This document shows, in pieces, positions 2,770 through 63,893 of a stretch of 64,000 nucleotides of DNA (the stretch's first letter is position 1; each line of letters begins with the position of its first letter). Position numbers and translations under genes: made by a program. The stretch spans positions 868,001 to 932,000 of the forward strand of contig NZ_CP095042.1 in NCBI RefSeq assembly GCF_022919715.1, given 5' to 3'. The notes beneath the pieces are model-generated. The model worked only from the letters and a program-made list of their open reading frames with translations, ran no database searches and was not told the origin of the DNA. The stretch is from Agromyces sp. H17E-10. GTDB taxonomy: Bacteria; Actinomycetota; Actinomycetes; Actinomycetales; Microbacteriaceae.

Positions 2770-3624
2770 ATGGAGGAGCCCACCGCACCGACGCACGTCG
2801 ACCCGTCGGGGCCGACGCGGTTCGCCCGCGCCGTACTCGCACCGAACCCCGGCCCGATGACCCTCGACGGCACGAACAGCTACCTGTTGCAGGCGCCGGG
2901 CACGCGGTCGACGATCGTCGTCGATCCAGGCCCGGCGGACGCCGGCCACCTCGAGCTGCTCGCGGCGCTGCCCGTCGAGCTCGTGCTCATCACGCACCAT
3001 CACGCCGACCACACCGAGGCGATCGACGCGTTCGCCCGCATGACCGGCGCACCGGTGCGAGCGATCGACCCGGCCTTCTGCCGCGACGCCGACCCGCTCA
3101 TCGACGGCGAACGCATCACGGCGGCCGGGATCGAGCTCGAGGTCGTGGCGACGCCCGGGCACACGGCCGACTCGGCGTGCTTCGCGCTCGTCGGCGAGGC
3201 GCCCGCGGCCCCCGGCACAGGCGTCGTGCCCGCTGCACCGCCATCACCGCTCGCCGTGCTCACGGGCGACACCGTGCTCGGCCGCGGCACGACGATCATC
3301 GCCGACCCCGACGGCGCGCTCGGCGCCTACCTCGACTCGCTCGAGCGGCTGCGTTCGCTCGGCACGCCCGGCCCCGTCGCGGTGCTGCCGGGGCACGGGC
3401 CTGCGCTGCCCGATCTCGCGGCGATCTGCGGCGCCTACCTCGCGCACCGGGCCGAGCGGCTCGACCAGGTGCGTGCCGCGCTCGCCCGGCTCGGCGTCGA
3501 TGCCGCGGCGGCCTCGGTCGGCGCCGTCACCGACGTCGTCTACGCCGACACGGATGCTGCGGTGCGAGGTGCCGCCGAGGCATCCATGCGGGCGCAGCTG
3601 AAGTACCTGCGCGACCGCCGCTGA
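2770..3624 (+). CDS. MBL-fold metallo-hydrolase (LACTB2/glyoxalase-II-like)
   Basis: The 284-residue protein has the metallo-beta-lactamase metal motif THHHADH at residues 75-81, a TPGHT histidine site, LTGDTVLG and a final PGHGP histidine. These are the usual ligands for two metal ions. The TLDGTNSYL start and C-terminal helical tail resemble the LACTB2-like branch, which includes nucleases and thioesterases, so the substrate cannot be fixed from sequence. It is divergent from the Nudix gene and both starts look leaderless. Confidence 0.88.
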   Translation: MEEPTAPTHVDPSGPTRFARAVLAPNPGPMTLDGTNSYLLQAPGTRSTIVVDPGPADAGHLELLAALPVELVLITHHHADHTEAIDAFARMTGAPVRAIDPAFCRDADPLIDGERITAAGIELEVVATPGHTADSACFALVGEAPAAPGTGVVPAAPPSPLAVLTGDTVLGRGTTIIADPDGALGAYLDSLERLRSLGTPGPVAVLPGHGPALPDLAAICGAYLAHRAERLDQVRAALARLGVDAAAASVGAVTDVVYADTDAAVRGAAEASMRAQLKYLRDRR

Positions 3625-3640
3625 CGCCCGCCGGATACGC

Positions 3641-3676
3641 CGAGTCGCCCGCCTCCGTTCGGAAGCGGGCGACTCG
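3641..3676. terminator. Bidirectional terminator hairpin
   Basis: Perfect 12-bp arms CGAGTCGCCCGC and GCGGGCGACTCG enclose a 12-base loop between two convergent genes. No T-run follows, which is usual in such GC-rich genomes. Confidence 0.7.
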
Positions 3677-3699
3677 TTCGGTTCAGCGCTGTGCTGGGC

Positions 3700-4272
3700 T
3701 CAGGCCGCGACGGCGAAGCCGCCGGTCCAGCCGATCTTCTCCTGCACCGCGAGGGTGAGCTGGAGGAAGCCGATCGACTCGAGCTCGCGGGCGCGCTTGA
3801 GGGCACCAGCGTCGATCGCCTTGACGCCACCGGCGCGCACCACGTCGATGAGCGCCTGCTTGGCCACGGCGTCGTCGCCGGCCACGAGCACCGTGGTCTC
3901 CTCCTCGCCGACCGACTTCGAGGCCAGGGTCGCGGCGAAGTTGGTGTTGAAGGCCTTGAGCACGCGCGACTCGGGCAGGAGCTCGGCGAGCTCGGCGGCC
4001 TTCGAGCTGTCGGATGCGGGAACGAGCGAGTCGAAGGTCTCGAAGTTCAGCGGGTTGGTGATGTCGACGACGATCTTGCCGGCGAGCTCGGCGCGGCGGG
4101 CCTCGGCGATCTCGGCGATCGCGAAGTGGGGCACGGCGAGCACGACGATGTCGCCCGTGACGGGCTTCGCGAGATCGCGGCCGAGCACCTCGACGCTGTT
4201 GCCGCCCGCGGCGACGATGCCGCCGATCGCCTGACCCATGTTGCCGTTGCCGATGATGCTGACCGTGGTCAT
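3700..4272 (-). CDS. NADPH-dependent F420 reductase-like oxidoreductase
   Basis: This 190-residue protein has an N-terminal dinucleotide-binding motif GNGNMG (residues 8-13). It follows the compact layout of the F420:NADP oxidoreductase-like family (COG2085), with VDITNPL and VLKAFNTNFA blocks. It should bind NADP(H); use of F420 or of another hydride acceptor is not decided by sequence. It is transcribed divergently from a MarR repressor, and two inverted repeats in the shared 101-bp intergenic region imply MarR control, perhaps induced by redox-active or phenolic compounds (inference). Confidence 0.85.
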   Translation of the reverse strand: MTTVSIIGNGNMGQAIGGIVAAGGNSVEVLGRDLAKPVTGDIVVLAVPHFAIAEIAEARRAELAGKIVVDITNPLNFETFDSLVPASDSSKAAELAELLPESRVLKAFNTNFAATLASKSVGEEETTVLVAGDDAVAKQALIDVVRAGGVKAIDAGALKRARELESIGFLQLTLAVQEKIGWTGGFAVAA

Positions 4273-4980: not shown

Positions 4981-5003
4981 GTCTGCCGAGAGCAGCACTG
5001 CTC
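4981..5003. promoter_or_regulatory. Palindrome upstream of clpP pair (PopR-box-like)
   Basis: AGAGCAG-CA-CTGCTCT (4988-5003) is a perfect 7-bp inverted repeat. It overlaps TCTGCC-GAG-AGCAGC (4981-4995), which resembles the Streptomyces PopR box, TCTGCC-N3-GGCAGA as I recall it, in all of the left half and four of six right-half bases. It sits 49 bp before the clpP start. Confidence 0.5.
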
Positions 5004-5051
5004 TGAGCAGCGTCCGCCCCACCTGAGCCCGCCGCAGCGCAGGCTGGGGTC

Positions 5052-5672
5052 ATGAGCGAACAGACCCCGGCGATCCAGCCGATCGACGCCGAGCTCACCG
5101 CCCGGCTCTTCCACGAACGCATCATCGTGCTCGGCGACGAGCTCGACCAGCAGGGCGGCAACCGGCTCTGCGCGCAGCTCGTCACCCTCGCCGGTGACGA
5201 CCCCCGTCGCGACATCCGATTCTGGATCAACTCGCCGGGCGGCTCGGTCTCGGCCATGCTCGCGATCGCCGACCTGATGCGGTCCATCCCGAACGACGTC
5301 GCGACGATCGCGTACGGCATCGCGGCGAGCGCAGGGCAGTTCCTGCTGAGCGCCGGCACGCCGGGCAAGCGGTTCGCGCTGCCGCACGCGCGCATCCTCA
5401 TGCACCAGGGTTCGGCGGGCATCGGCGGCACCGCGGTCGACGTCGAGCTGCAGGCCGACGACCTTCGGTACACCCGCGACACGGTGCTCGGCATCACGGC
5501 CGAGAACACCGGGCAACCGCTCGCGAAGATCGCCGAGGACTCGTTGCGCGACCGCTGGTACACGGCGGCGGAGTCGGTCGACTACGGCTTCATCGACCGC
5601 GTCGTCGACGGCTTCGACGAGATGTTCCCGAGGGCCGAGCGCCCCCAGACCGGATTGCGAGCGAGCGCATGA
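5052..5672 (+). CDS. clpP: ATP-dependent Clp protease proteolytic subunit (ClpP, catalytic)
   Basis: This 206-residue ClpP keeps the complete catalytic triad: S93 in GIAASAGQF, H118 in LMHQGSAG and D167 in SLRDRWYT. ClpP subunits form seven-membered rings that stack into a barrel fed by ClpX or ClpC. The gene overlaps the next clpP by four bases (ATGA), so the two subunits are co-translated and probably assemble together. A ClgR/PopR-like activator gene is convergent just downstream. In Streptomyces a second, normally silent clpP3-clpP4 pair is switched on by PopR, and this looks like a comparable accessory pair. Confidence 0.93.
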   Translation: MSEQTPAIQPIDAELTARLFHERIIVLGDELDQQGGNRLCAQLVTLAGDDPRRDIRFWINSPGGSVSAMLAIADLMRSIPNDVATIAYGIAASAGQFLLSAGTPGKRFALPHARILMHQGSAGIGGTAVDVELQADDLRYTRDTVLGITAENTGQPLAKIAEDSLRDRWYTAAESVDYGFIDRVVDGFDEMFPRAERPQTGLRASA

Positions 5673-6304
5673 CCAGCTCCAGCTACACCATCCCGTACGT
5701 CATCGAGCGTCGCGGCAACAGCGAACGCTCGCTCGACGTGTACAGCCGCCTGCTCTCGGAGCGCATCGTCTACCTCGGCACCGAGATCGACGACGGCGTC
5801 GCGAACGTGCTCATCGCGCAGTTCCTGCACCTCGCGTCGGAGTCGAGCGACACTCCCATCAGCCTCTACCTCAACTCCCCCGGCGGCTCGCCTGGCGCGG
5901 CGCTCGCGGTCTACGACACGATGCAGCACATCCGCCCCGATGTCGCGACGACGTGCGTCGGCCAGGCCGGCGGGCCCGCCGCCGTGCTGCTCGCGGGCGG
6001 CGCGAAGGGACAGCGGGCGATCCTGCCGCACGGGCGGGTCGTGCTGCACCAGCCGTCGACGCAGGGCCGGGGCACCATCCCCGACCTCATCATCCACGCG
6101 GATGAGGTGGTGCGCGTGCGCGCCGAGCTCGAAGCGGCCCTCGCGGCCGATACCGGCCACGACGTGGCGACGCTGCGTCACGACACCGACCGCGACCTCA
6201 TCCTGCCGGCCGCGGCGGCCGTCGAGTACGGCCTCGCCGACCACGTGCTGACGGCACGCGTGTCGGTCGGCTCGGGTGTCGGGGCCTACGCCGCGAGCAG
6301 GTAG
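5669..6304 (+). CDS. ClpP-family subunit lacking the catalytic serine (ClpR-like)
   Basis: The 211-residue protein aligns with ClpP along its length (LNSPGGSPG, VLHQPSTQGRG, AVEYGLAD). Where ClpP has G-Q-A-A-S, this protein reads GQAGGPA, so the nucleophile is replaced by G102. The triad partners H127 (VLHQP) and D176 (TDRD) remain. By analogy with ClpR of cyanobacteria and plastids, it should be a non-catalytic ring partner for the upstream subunit; that role is inference. It overlaps the upstream clpP by 4 bp and the convergent regulator by 19 bp. Confidence 0.9.
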   Translation: MTSSSYTIPYVIERRGNSERSLDVYSRLLSERIVYLGTEIDDGVANVLIAQFLHLASESSDTPISLYLNSPGGSPGAALAVYDTMQHIRPDVATTCVGQAGGPAAVLLAGGAKGQRAILPHGRVVLHQPSTQGRGTIPDLIIHADEVVRVRAELEAALAADTGHDVATLRHDTDRDLILPAAAAVEYGLADHVLTARVSVGSGVGAYAASR

Positions 6305-6768
6305 ACGCCGCCGGGCGGCGCGGCGGCCGTCGCGCCGCCGTCGGCGATCACCACCGGGGGCCCGTCGACGTCGAGCACGAGCACGGTGCCGAGATCGACG
6401 GCCGGATGCCTCGCCGGCAGGTCGGACCGGAACGCGAACGCCCGCTCGCGCTCGAGCGACTCGCGCCGCTCGTCGTCGCGGCGCTCGGCCTCGTGGCGGG
6501 TCCCGAGCAGCTCGCCGACCCGGTGCGCGACCTCGAAGAGCTCGAGCCCGAGCGCCTCGGTGACGGCGCCGAGCACCTCGCTCGACGGCTCCTTGCGGCC
6601 GCGTTCGATCTCGGAGAGGTACTGCGGCGAGACGCCGGCCGTCGCCGCGACCTCGGTGAGGATCCGCTCCTGCGCGAGCCGTTCGCCGCGCAGCACCTCG
6701 CCGAGCACGTCGCGCCAGAGCGGCTTCGACCGCTTCTTCACCTTCGGGAACTCGACGACCTTGCCCAT
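6286..6768 (-). CDS. ClgR/PopR-like XRE-family activator of Clp genes
   Basis: This 160-residue protein carries a Cro/C1 helix-turn-helix (residues 38-60, TEVAATAGVSPQYLSEIERGRKE) preceded by LWRDVLGEVLRGERL, a combination characteristic of ClgR and PopR. Those regulators activate clp genes and are themselves degraded by Clp; degradation signals are at the C-terminus, and this protein ends in YLLAA, a hydrophobic Ala-Ala tail of that kind. It is convergent with the clpP pair and overlaps it by 19 bp. A TAGCCT box six bases before ATG suggests a leaderless message. Confidence 0.85.
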   Translation of the reverse strand: MGKVVEFPKVKKRSKPLWRDVLGEVLRGERLAQERILTEVAATAGVSPQYLSEIERGRKEPSSEVLGAVTEALGLELFEVAHRVGELLGTRHEAERRDDERRESLERERAFAFRSDLPARHPAVDLGTVLVLDVDGPPVVIADGGATAAAPPGGVYLLAA

Positions 6769-62249: not shown

Positions 62250-63206
62250 TCAGGCGCGGGGCGCCATCGCGCTGATGAGCTCGTAGGCGACGTGGGATGC
62301 CGCGACCGCCGTCAGCTGCGCGTGGTCGTAGGCCGGGGCGACCTCGACGACGTCGGCGCCGACGATGCGCTTGTCGGCGAGGGCGCGGATGATGCGGAGG
62401 AGCTCACGGCTCGTGAGCCCGCCCGCCTCGGGGGTGCCCGTGCCGGGCGCGTGCGCCGGGTCGAGCACGTCGATGTCGATCGAGATGTAGAGCGGCTTGT
62501 CGCCGATGCGGGCGCGGATGCGCTCGATCGCCGACTCGACGCCCTGCTCCTCGATGTCCTCGCTCGTGACGATCGCGAAGCCGAGTCGTGCGTCGTCGGT
62601 CAGGTCCTCGACGCCGTAGAGCGGGCCGCGGGTGCCGACGTGCATGCTCGCGGTGAGGTCGATGAGCCCCTCCTCCGACGCACGGCGGAACGGCGTGCCG
62701 TGCGTGATCGGGGCCCCGAAGTAGGTGTCCCACGTGTCGAGGTGGGCATCGAAGTGCAGCACTGCGACGGGGCCGTGCTGCGCCGTGACGGCGCGCAGCA
62801 GCGGCAGCGCGATCGTGTGGTCGCCGCCGATGACGACGAGCCGGTCGGCCTGCTCGGCGAGCGAGCGGGCGCCGGCCTCGACGTCGGCGACGGCCTCGGC
62901 GATGTCGAACGGGTTGACGGCGATGTCGCCCGCGTCGGCGACCTGCTGCACGGCGAAGGGCAGCACGCCCTGCGCCGGGTTGAACGGTCGCAGCAGGCGC
63001 GACGCCTCGCGCACGTGCGACGGGCCGAATCGCGCGCCGGGGCGGTAGCTCACGCCGCTGTCGAAGGGCACGCCCACGACGGCGATGTCGGCGTGCGGCA
63101 CCTCGTCGAGGCGGGGAAGGCGGGCGAACGTCGCGATGCCCGCGAAGCGCGGGACACGGCTGGCGTCGACGGGACCGATGGGTTCGGGCGAAACATCCGG
63201 TTGCAT
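62250..63206 (-). CDS. Agmatinase-family ureohydrolase
   Basis: The 318-residue enzyme has all manganese-binding motifs of the arginase/agmatinase family: GGDH (H130), DAHLD (D153, H155, D157) and [22 protein letters not shown] (D244, D246). It hydrolyses a guanidino or amidino group to urea. Agmatine is the default annotation, but guanidinobutyrate, guanidinopropionate and guanidine itself are used by close relatives. The NCS1 permease and cyclase nearby suggest a non-agmatine substrate. GGAGG precedes ATG. It is divergent from an XRE-cupin regulator. Confidence 0.92.
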
Positions 63207-63305
63207 ATTGCGAAACCTCCGATGTACTGGAGTAAACTTCGGGGCAATGCTACGACCGGCCCGCTACGGTGTCAACAGCCCGCCGTCGACCCCGAAGGAG
63301 CCCGC

Positions 63306-63893
63306 ATGCAACGACCGGTCCCGCCGTCGCCGAGCGACTCCCCCATGGCGATCGGCCCTCGCCTGCGCAACGCCCGCACCGCGCAGGGGCTCACCCTCGC
63401 GCAGGTCGCCGCAGCCGCCGGACTCACCAAGGGCTTCCTGAGCCGGCTCGAGCGCGACGAGACGTCGCCGAGCGTCGCGACGCTCGTGCAGCTCTGCCAG
63501 GTGCTCTCGATCTCGGTCGGCTCGCTGTTCGCCGAGCCCGAGATCCAGGTCGTCCAGCTCGCCTCTGCGCCCCGCATCAACCTCGGCGGCACGGGCGTCG
63601 CCGAGCACCTCATCTCGCCGCGCAGCGAGTCACGGGTGCAGATGATCCGCTCGGTCATGGAGCCCGGGGCGTCGGGCGGCGCCGAGCTCTACACGATCTC
63701 GAGCGACGTCGAGGTGCTGCACGTGCTCTCGGGCGCCGTGAGCGTGCGCTTCGTCGACCGCGAGGTGCCGCTCGTCGCGGGCGACTCGATGACCTTCCCC
63801 GGCCGCGAGCCGCACAACTGGCGCGCCGACGACGAACTCGGCGCCGAGGTCGTCTGGGTGATCGTGCCCGCGTCGTGGAGCGGCTCGAGCTGA
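63306..63893 (+). CDS. XRE family regulator with C-terminal cupin
   Basis: The 195-residue regulator has an N-terminal Cro/C1 HTH (LRNARTAQGLTLAQVAAAAGLTKGFLSRLERDETSPSVATLVQLCQVL) and a cupin domain (about residues 110-190; DVEVLHVLSGAVSVRFVDREVPLVAGDSMTFPGREPHNWR). Proteins of this layout, such as PuuR, sense polyamines or related nitrogen compounds. AAGGAG precedes ATG at 63306. It is divergent from the ureohydrolase, which it probably controls together with the permease/cyclase genes. Confidence 0.92.
   Translation: MQRPVPPSPSDSPMAIGPRLRNARTAQGLTLAQVAAAAGLTKGFLSRLERDETSPSVATLVQLCQVLSISVGSLFAEPEIQVVQLASAPRINLGGTGVAEHLISPRSESRVQMIRSVMEPGASGGAELYTISSDVEVLHVLSGAVSVRFVDREVPLVAGDSMTFPGREPHNWRADDELGAEVVWVIVPASWSGSS

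Follow-up and report, generated by a model that had tools for sequence, protein, structure and literature searches.

We analysed a pair of adjacent clpP genes, here called clpP-A and clpP-B, together with the regulator gene that faces them, in a 64,000-nucleotide stretch of the Agromyces sp. H17E-10 chromosome (C1:868001-932000, contig NZ_CP095042.1; hereafter the window), part of a single-contig genome of 4.25 Mb. Comparative sequence analysis suggests, with a probability that we put at roughly 0.7, that this locus is the Agromyces version of the ClpP3P4/PopR backup protease system, and that within one core subunit A would cut while subunit B, which has glycine in place of the nucleophilic serine, would dock and stabilise. 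Read in this way, which we find the best reading of the sequences, A and B would form a recurrent actinobacterial counterpart of ClpP/ClpR, with A as the cutting and B as the docking or structural subunit. The features of the locus are, in window coordinates:

4982..5011, no strand assigned: tandem PopR-type operator, two units with a period of 15 base pairs (bp), 40 bp ahead of the start codon of clpP-A; agrees with the pattern at 18 of 24 specified bases
5052..5672, + strand: clpP-A (ClpP3-type), predicted catalytic subunit; 206 residues; PF00574, 6.6e-59
5669..6304, + strand: clpP-B (ClpP4-type), predicted non-catalytic docking/structural subunit; 211 residues; PF00574, 1.1e-59
5972..5974, + strand: codon 102 of clpP-B, Gly at the expected nucleophilic Ser (GQAGGPA); Gly in 31/31 genus pairs
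6286..6768, - strand: popR-like regulator with a ClgR-family helix-turn-helix (HTH), convergent with clpP-B, its YLLAA end a putative Clp degron; matches NF041677 and HTH_3

All three proteins match known families in profile searches, and the layout given in the original prediction, made from the DNA letters of the window, proved correct. The start of clpP-B overlaps the end of clpP-A by 4 bp (ATGA), and the ClgR/PopR-type regulator gene, which does end in YLLAA, converges on them so that its end overlaps that of clpP-B by 19 bp on the opposite strand. Translation and alignment also bear out the active sites that had been described. Subunit A has a complete triad of Ser93, in a GIAAS motif, His118 and Asp167, and these residues show no variation across 28 aligned A sequences. 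In subunit B the expected GQAAS is replaced by GQAGG(102)PA, with Gly102-Pro103 at the nucleophile position; His127 and Asp176 are retained, and B therefore reads Gly102, His127, Asp176 where a catalytic ClpP has Ser-His-Asp.

Glycine occupies this position throughout the genus. We compared 37 genomes, the window's own and another 36, out of 59 relatives drawn, that share its genus code; 31 of the 37 have four ClpP matches and six have two. B carries the second Gly (102) in all 31 same-genus pairs (loci L006-L035 and L043), the residue before it varies between Gly, Ala and Val (contexts GQAGGPA, GQAAGPA, GQAVGPA, GRAGGPA and GQVGGPV), no orthologue has a serine there, and in two of the 31 Asp is changed to Glu as well. 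A sequencing or assembly error at Gly102 is ruled out by this agreement, and no Ser or Thr is found in GQAGGPAAVLLAGG of B, where a replacement serine might have lain nearby; an explanation by error, or by such a substitute, is thus left with a negligible probability. Among the best 80 of 526 relatives, the named ones closest to window B are mostly Agromyces species.

A second explanation for the missing serine is that B is redundant and decaying to a pseudogene, and indeed the triad residues of B are highly variable and the pair is missing from 6 of the 37 genus genomes. However, the B frame is uninterrupted in all 30 genus loci tested, and the median Nei-Gojobori ratio of nonsynonymous to synonymous substitution rates (dN/dS; 435 pairs from these 30 loci, rough values because of high GC and simple counting) is lower for B, at 0.28, than for A, at 0.37. 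Compared with the nearest genome, window B has a dN of 0.014 and a dS of 0.29. Judged by these substitutions, purifying selection acts on B in the genus. The constancy of the glycine in the 31 pairs argues against decay too, as does the invariance of the docking tyrosine and N-loop proline described below, and we consider it highly unlikely.

The pair had been called accessory, and the rest of the genome agrees. There are four PF00574 matches, and the other two belong to a tig-clpP1-clpP2-clpX locus at C1:3.78 Mb (gene names read from translations), which rules out that the pair in the window is the sole clpP pair. Four ClpB_D2-small domains are encoded in the genome, and the position of one identifies it as clpX; none of its Clp ATPase genes lies beside the accessory pair, the closest ClpB_D2-small domain being ~98 kb away.

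What the original prediction overlooked is that subunit B has lost triad residues in several different ways within the class, of which the serine loss seen here is a single example. We surveyed 393 genomes drawn class-wide (completeness of at least 90 requested) with a profile built from 29 B subunits of both triad states, and fetched all 120 matches of at least 303 bits plus seven below this as a check, which gave 127 loci (L130-L256). The counts leave out the seven low scorers (L250-L256) and L227, L245 and L248, whose genomes have no other pair. This leaves 117 loci in 117 genomes, that is, an accessory pair in 117 of 393, with A readable in 116 (the stretch holding L179 ends at a contig edge). 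A reads Ser-His-Asp in 116 of 116. The B triad is complete in 40 of the 117 and incomplete in 77, the incomplete ones coming from 10 of 14 family codes. Ser is lost in 50, Asp in 25 and His in 21, with two residues gone in 19; 70 of the 117 lack Ser or His, and Asp alone is changed in 7 of the 77, to Asn in 4 of these.

The residue that is lost depends on the lineage. In f1, the family of the window, Ser is replaced by Gly in 9/9 loci, while Ser to Ala is found chiefly in f33, f22 and f34. In f36 Glu stands in place of Ser and either Asn or His in place of Asp, and in f41 Trp replaces Ser, in some cases together with Thr for Asp, a pattern also seen in Nocardioides among the named loci. A different solution is seen in f35, where Ser is retained and His is replaced by Gly in 19/19 loci, and the same is true of three named Streptomyces loci; this shared signature suggests that f35 is the Streptomyces family. 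A adjoins B in 116 of the 117 loci (the exception is L179, at the contig edge) and overlaps it by 4 bp in 84 of 116.

The named loci are the best 80 of 526 relatives and are thus selected for likeness to the window. A reads Ser-His-Asp in 78 of these 80, and both triad states of B occur within each of Cellulomonas, Actinotalea, Gordonia, Nocardia and Nocardioides, genera in which vertical descent of the locus is an assumption. A contig end truncates L105, and L061 was omitted from the tree because its B is cut before the Asp. In L092 (Microbacterium elymi, complete chromosome, ~3340-4000) A is split across two frames with the triad residues encoded and B open, which may be an assembly error or a true break.

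We compared the accessory subunits with housekeeping ClpP1 and ClpP2 in 30 of the 117 pair-bearing genomes, picked by hand for spread. Both canonical triads are complete in 30/30. In these same genomes accessory A is complete in 30 and accessory B in 12, and the difference between B and canonical P2 is significant by Fisher's test (p 1.9e-7, a value that ignores relatedness). Triad decay is thus limited to B in the 30 genomes compared.

In a FastTree phylogeny of 299 rows, A forms one clade (support 99), B another (83) and canonical P2 a third (99), while canonical P1 is unresolved as a single clade (4 changes). The f35 proteins fall into these A and B clades together with those of the window, which we regard as orthologues of ClpP3 and ClpP4, with f35 taken to be Streptomyces from its His loss. 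State changes were counted on a B tree from which the triad columns and the adjacent positions had been removed, where the state changes at least 6 times between intact and incomplete and at least 5 times for loss of Ser or His, with at least 21 changes of the triad state; these counts are blind to direction (loss versus gain), and 39 of the 117 inner branches are open. A separate tree of the named loci (79 rows) requires 7 changes between intact and broken. The three outgroup pairs of the B tree (L227, L245 and L248) have intact triads.

Two observations from these trees stand on their own. The three outgroup pairs, from genomes G222, G064 and G067, resemble the accessory pair and are the only ClpP pair of their genomes, which may bear on its origin from ordinary ClpP1P2. 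Within f1 there are two serine-less types of B, GQAIGPA in genus g23 (L238, L244 and L246) and GQAGGPA and similar in the window's genus (L141, L152, L156, L162, L225 and L230), at separate positions in the B tree; this split may reflect horizontal transfer of the cassette.

In Streptomyces, ClpX, ClpC1 and ClpC2 dock on ClpP2 while ClpP1 does the cutting; among the residues of the docking pocket are the counterparts of E. coli Tyr74, Tyr76 and Phe96 (mature 60, 62 and 82), and a mixed core with a ClpP2 serine mutant is fully active (PMC9765437). Docking elements and an N-loop proline are described as conserved in actinobacterial ClpP2 and less so in ClpP1 (PMC4416901). We find Tyr62 (E. coli mature numbering) in 117/117 B subunits, in canonical P2 in 30/30 and in canonical P1 in 25/30, whereas A has Tyr in 49, Trp in 41, Ala in 14 and other residues in 12 (n=116). 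The constraint is reciprocal: in A the columns of Ser, His and Asp have zero entropy and that of Tyr62 lies at the 80th percentile, and in B Tyr62 has zero entropy and Ser lies at the 76th. Position 82 is Phe, Tyr or His in 117/117 B (Phe or Tyr in 101) and Leu in 80/116 A. The N-loop proline (P9) is invariant in 29 aligned B and has no equivalent in 28 aligned A.

The AlphaFold model of B adopts the ClpP fold and includes an N-terminal hairpin (mean predicted local distance difference test score, pLDDT, 86.5), and among the 50 best matches shown it aligns to solved ClpP structures, including M. tuberculosis ClpP2 (4u0g_A), with template modelling (TM) scores of 0.83-0.88 over the query.

A mixed core of a catalytic ClpP and a triad-less paralogue, the reading suggested in the original prediction and one that we also find natural, would recall ClpP3/ClpR of cyanobacteria and plastids (PMC4673316). 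The bacterial lineage differs, and the highest score of B is with the general ClpP model NF001368 (232 bits), compared with 157 bits for NF009204 (cut-off 263). We take NF009204 to be the model that covers ClpR; with this score, and with trees that contained no ClpR row, no support was obtained for B as a ClpR by descent. The cyanobacterial ring alternates three P3 and four R subunits (PMC4673316), whereas the precedent of Streptomyces ClpP1P2 suggests separate A and B rings instead. Two published results are parallel cases: restoring the site in ClpR made ClpP3/R no faster (PMC4673316), and chloroplast CLPP3 without its serine complements fully, which makes its contribution a structural one (PMC6508832). 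The two dissimilar subunits of the accessory pair also resemble housekeeping ClpP1P2, where in Streptomyces ClpP1 cuts and ClpP2 docks; the housekeeping pair differs in its intact triads and, in Streptomyces, in being induced by ClgR and not by PopR (PMC9765437).

The original prediction also regarded an actinobacterial pair with its own regulator as undescribed. This does not stand, because Streptomyces clpP3clpP4/PopR is such a pair (PMC9765437, PMC12607617, PMC9775585). In Streptomyces, clpP3clpP4 is activated by the ClgR paralogue PopR, and ClpP1P2 degrades PopR, so that ClpP3P4 is made when ClpP1P2 fails (PMC9765437, PMC12607617). The window locus shares with it a second pair besides clpP1P2, a ClgR-family regulator ending in AA and a tandem TCTGCC-N3-GGC operator, and the order A, B, convergent regulator is found in three named Streptomyces loci (L110, L114 and L123) and in 19/19 f35 loci. 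It differs in its Gly for Ser, where B in these same loci keeps Ser and has lost His. We assign the locus to the ClpP3P4/PopR system because the operator layout, the convergent regulator with its AA end and the A and B clades all agree.

A ClgR-family regulator accompanies 106 of the 117 class-wide pairs, convergent with B in 106/106 and ending in AA in 101 of these; in the genus it is present in 27/30 loci, with AA in 23 of the 27. C-terminal alanines are described as a likely degradation signal, as tested with ClgR and Lon mutants (PMC9775585). For the operator we used the pattern TCTGCC-N3-GGCRRA-TCTGCC-N3-GGCAGA, with 24 specified bases, after the PopR box quoted as TCTGCC-3N-GGCGAATCTGCC-3N-GGCAGA in the review PMC9775585. 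The window site is degenerate, with the 18 matches given above, and has the correct spacing. Scores of 18 or more are reached in 21/30 genus upstream regions compared with 1/600 base shuffles, and in 89/116 class-wide loci compared with 2/2320. A stricter core (at most 2 mismatches) occurs at one place in the window, where dinucleotide shuffles give a mean of 0.01. The full tandem operator is lacking in 15/16 f36 loci (scores 14-16) and in 9 other loci.

In the f36 loci L148, L174, L178, L186, L197, L205 and L214 the best operator match holds a single unit, TCTGCTNNNRGCAGA; B of f36 has lost Asp and often Ser too.

Taken together, we propose the following mechanism, modelled on Streptomyces and, for Agromyces, on sequence features. 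The PopR-like protein, with its putative AA degron, would normally be destroyed by housekeeping ClpP1P2. When ClpP1P2 fails or is overloaded it would accumulate, bind the tandem operator before clpP-A and switch on the A-B operon. The 4-bp overlap seen in most loci suggests that A and B are produced jointly, and coupled translation would supply them to one hetero-tetradecamer. A, the sole bearer of complete Ser-His-Asp sites, would do the cutting. B, without a nucleophile and with its predicted Clp fold, N-terminal loop and docking tyrosine, would most likely be the ring on which ClpX or ClpC docks and would stabilise A. Because one cutting ring suffices, the active site of the docking subunit would be free to decay, and would have decayed repeatedly in the class via different residues. 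At even odds we extend this to ClpP3P4 across the Actinomycetes: an asymmetric protease with a cutting ring A and, in most lineages, a dead docking ring B, reached independently several times, Streptomyces included, with loss of the site permitted, or favoured by selection, in the emergency protease alone and not in the housekeeping one.

Several observations weigh against this proposal. Window B carries His at position 82, and the first pocket position is variable in both A and B. The docking pocket of B, scored at six positions, has a mean hydrophobicity of 3.87, below the 4.67 of A, with canonical P2 at 4.90 and P1 at 5.23; we give this measure little weight, as it fails to discriminate docking from non-docking subunits: in Streptomyces it is P2 that docks and P1 that does not, yet canonical P1 has the higher value. 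As 40 of the 117 B keep a full triad, its loss is not obligatory, and the seven B with a change of Asp alone may still cut, because Listeria ClpP1, with Asn at that position, is active in a mixed complex (PMC9765437). If docking subunits need no site, the intact triad of canonical P2 in 30/30 genomes is unexplained. The window regulator scores 75 bits with the ClgR model NF041677, under the curated cut-off of 170, and the best score elsewhere in the genome, 99 bits, is likewise under it. The regulator is missing, with room to spare, in 7/117 class-wide and 2/30 genus loci (4 further class-wide loci without it are at contig ends). Finally, a looser operator core has 3 matches in the genome compared with 7 for a reversed-pattern control. 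Two of the three are the window site on its two strands and the other is at C1:4,230,984, so that support for the operator lies in its position and recurrence, not in rarity. Because the control outnumbers the core, which has a single extra place, we claim no further target and no wider PopR regulon.

B could instead be a regulatory pseudo-subunit that inserts into ClpP1P2 cores or A rings to inhibit or retarget them, with no dedicated A-B core. ClpP_ADEP of S. hawaiiensis offers a precedent, as it is an accessory ClpP that remodels the Clp system, disrupting ClpP1 complexes activated by acyldepsipeptides (ADEP) and forming a working core with ClpP2 (PMC12607617), and B has lost its site where canonical P2 has retained its own. 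ClpP_ADEP is most like ClpP1, and the parts of PMC12607617 that describe it mention no partner clpP gene of its own. The adjacency of A and B in all but one locus, and their frequent overlap, point to A as the partner of B, and we regard a pseudo-subunit as unlikely.

The loss of the site might itself be adaptive, which would be compatible with a docking role for B: fewer sites could alter peptide length, processivity or sensitivity to the natural Clp inhibitors of competing actinobacteria, such as ADEP and beta-lactones. ClpP3P4 is reported to be insensitive to ADEP and to be expressed in ADEP-resistant, clpP1-defective S. lividans (PMC12607617), and beta-lactones are reported to be lethal to S. 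coelicolor without clpP3 and clpP4 (review PMC9775585). Yet A retains a full serine site that is open to beta-lactone attack, and the variation of the lost residue between lineages fits drift at least as well. An adaptive loss is therefore doubtful, and because the lost residues vary we lean towards drift after an initial loss over selection.

The pair, its regulator and its backup role are already known from Streptomyces, and inactive ClpP paralogues are known from ClpR. What appears to be new, as far as the open-access literature shows, is that triad loss in the ClpP4-type subunit is spread over many lineages of the class, with the partner subunit intact in every readable sampled locus. No report of a broken triad in ClpP4 was found in that literature, whose coverage does not extend to the founding PopR papers (2000-2006). 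The benefit of mixed Clp cores in cyanobacteria has been called unclear (PMC4673316). Related pairs with intact and broken B, alongside a housekeeping pair that is intact in 30/30 genomes, provide a natural comparison, which suggests that ClpP1P2 depends on the site of its second ring whereas the backup protease does not, and which makes the purpose of half-active Clp machines accessible to test.

Elsewhere in the window, at 62250-63893, an agmatinase-like gene (62250-63206, - strand) lies beside an HTH-cupin frame (+ strand, ending at 63893), both named by eye. The HTH-cupin frame gives a weak match to the ClgR model (38.5 bits) and looks like an unrelated XRE-cupin regulator.

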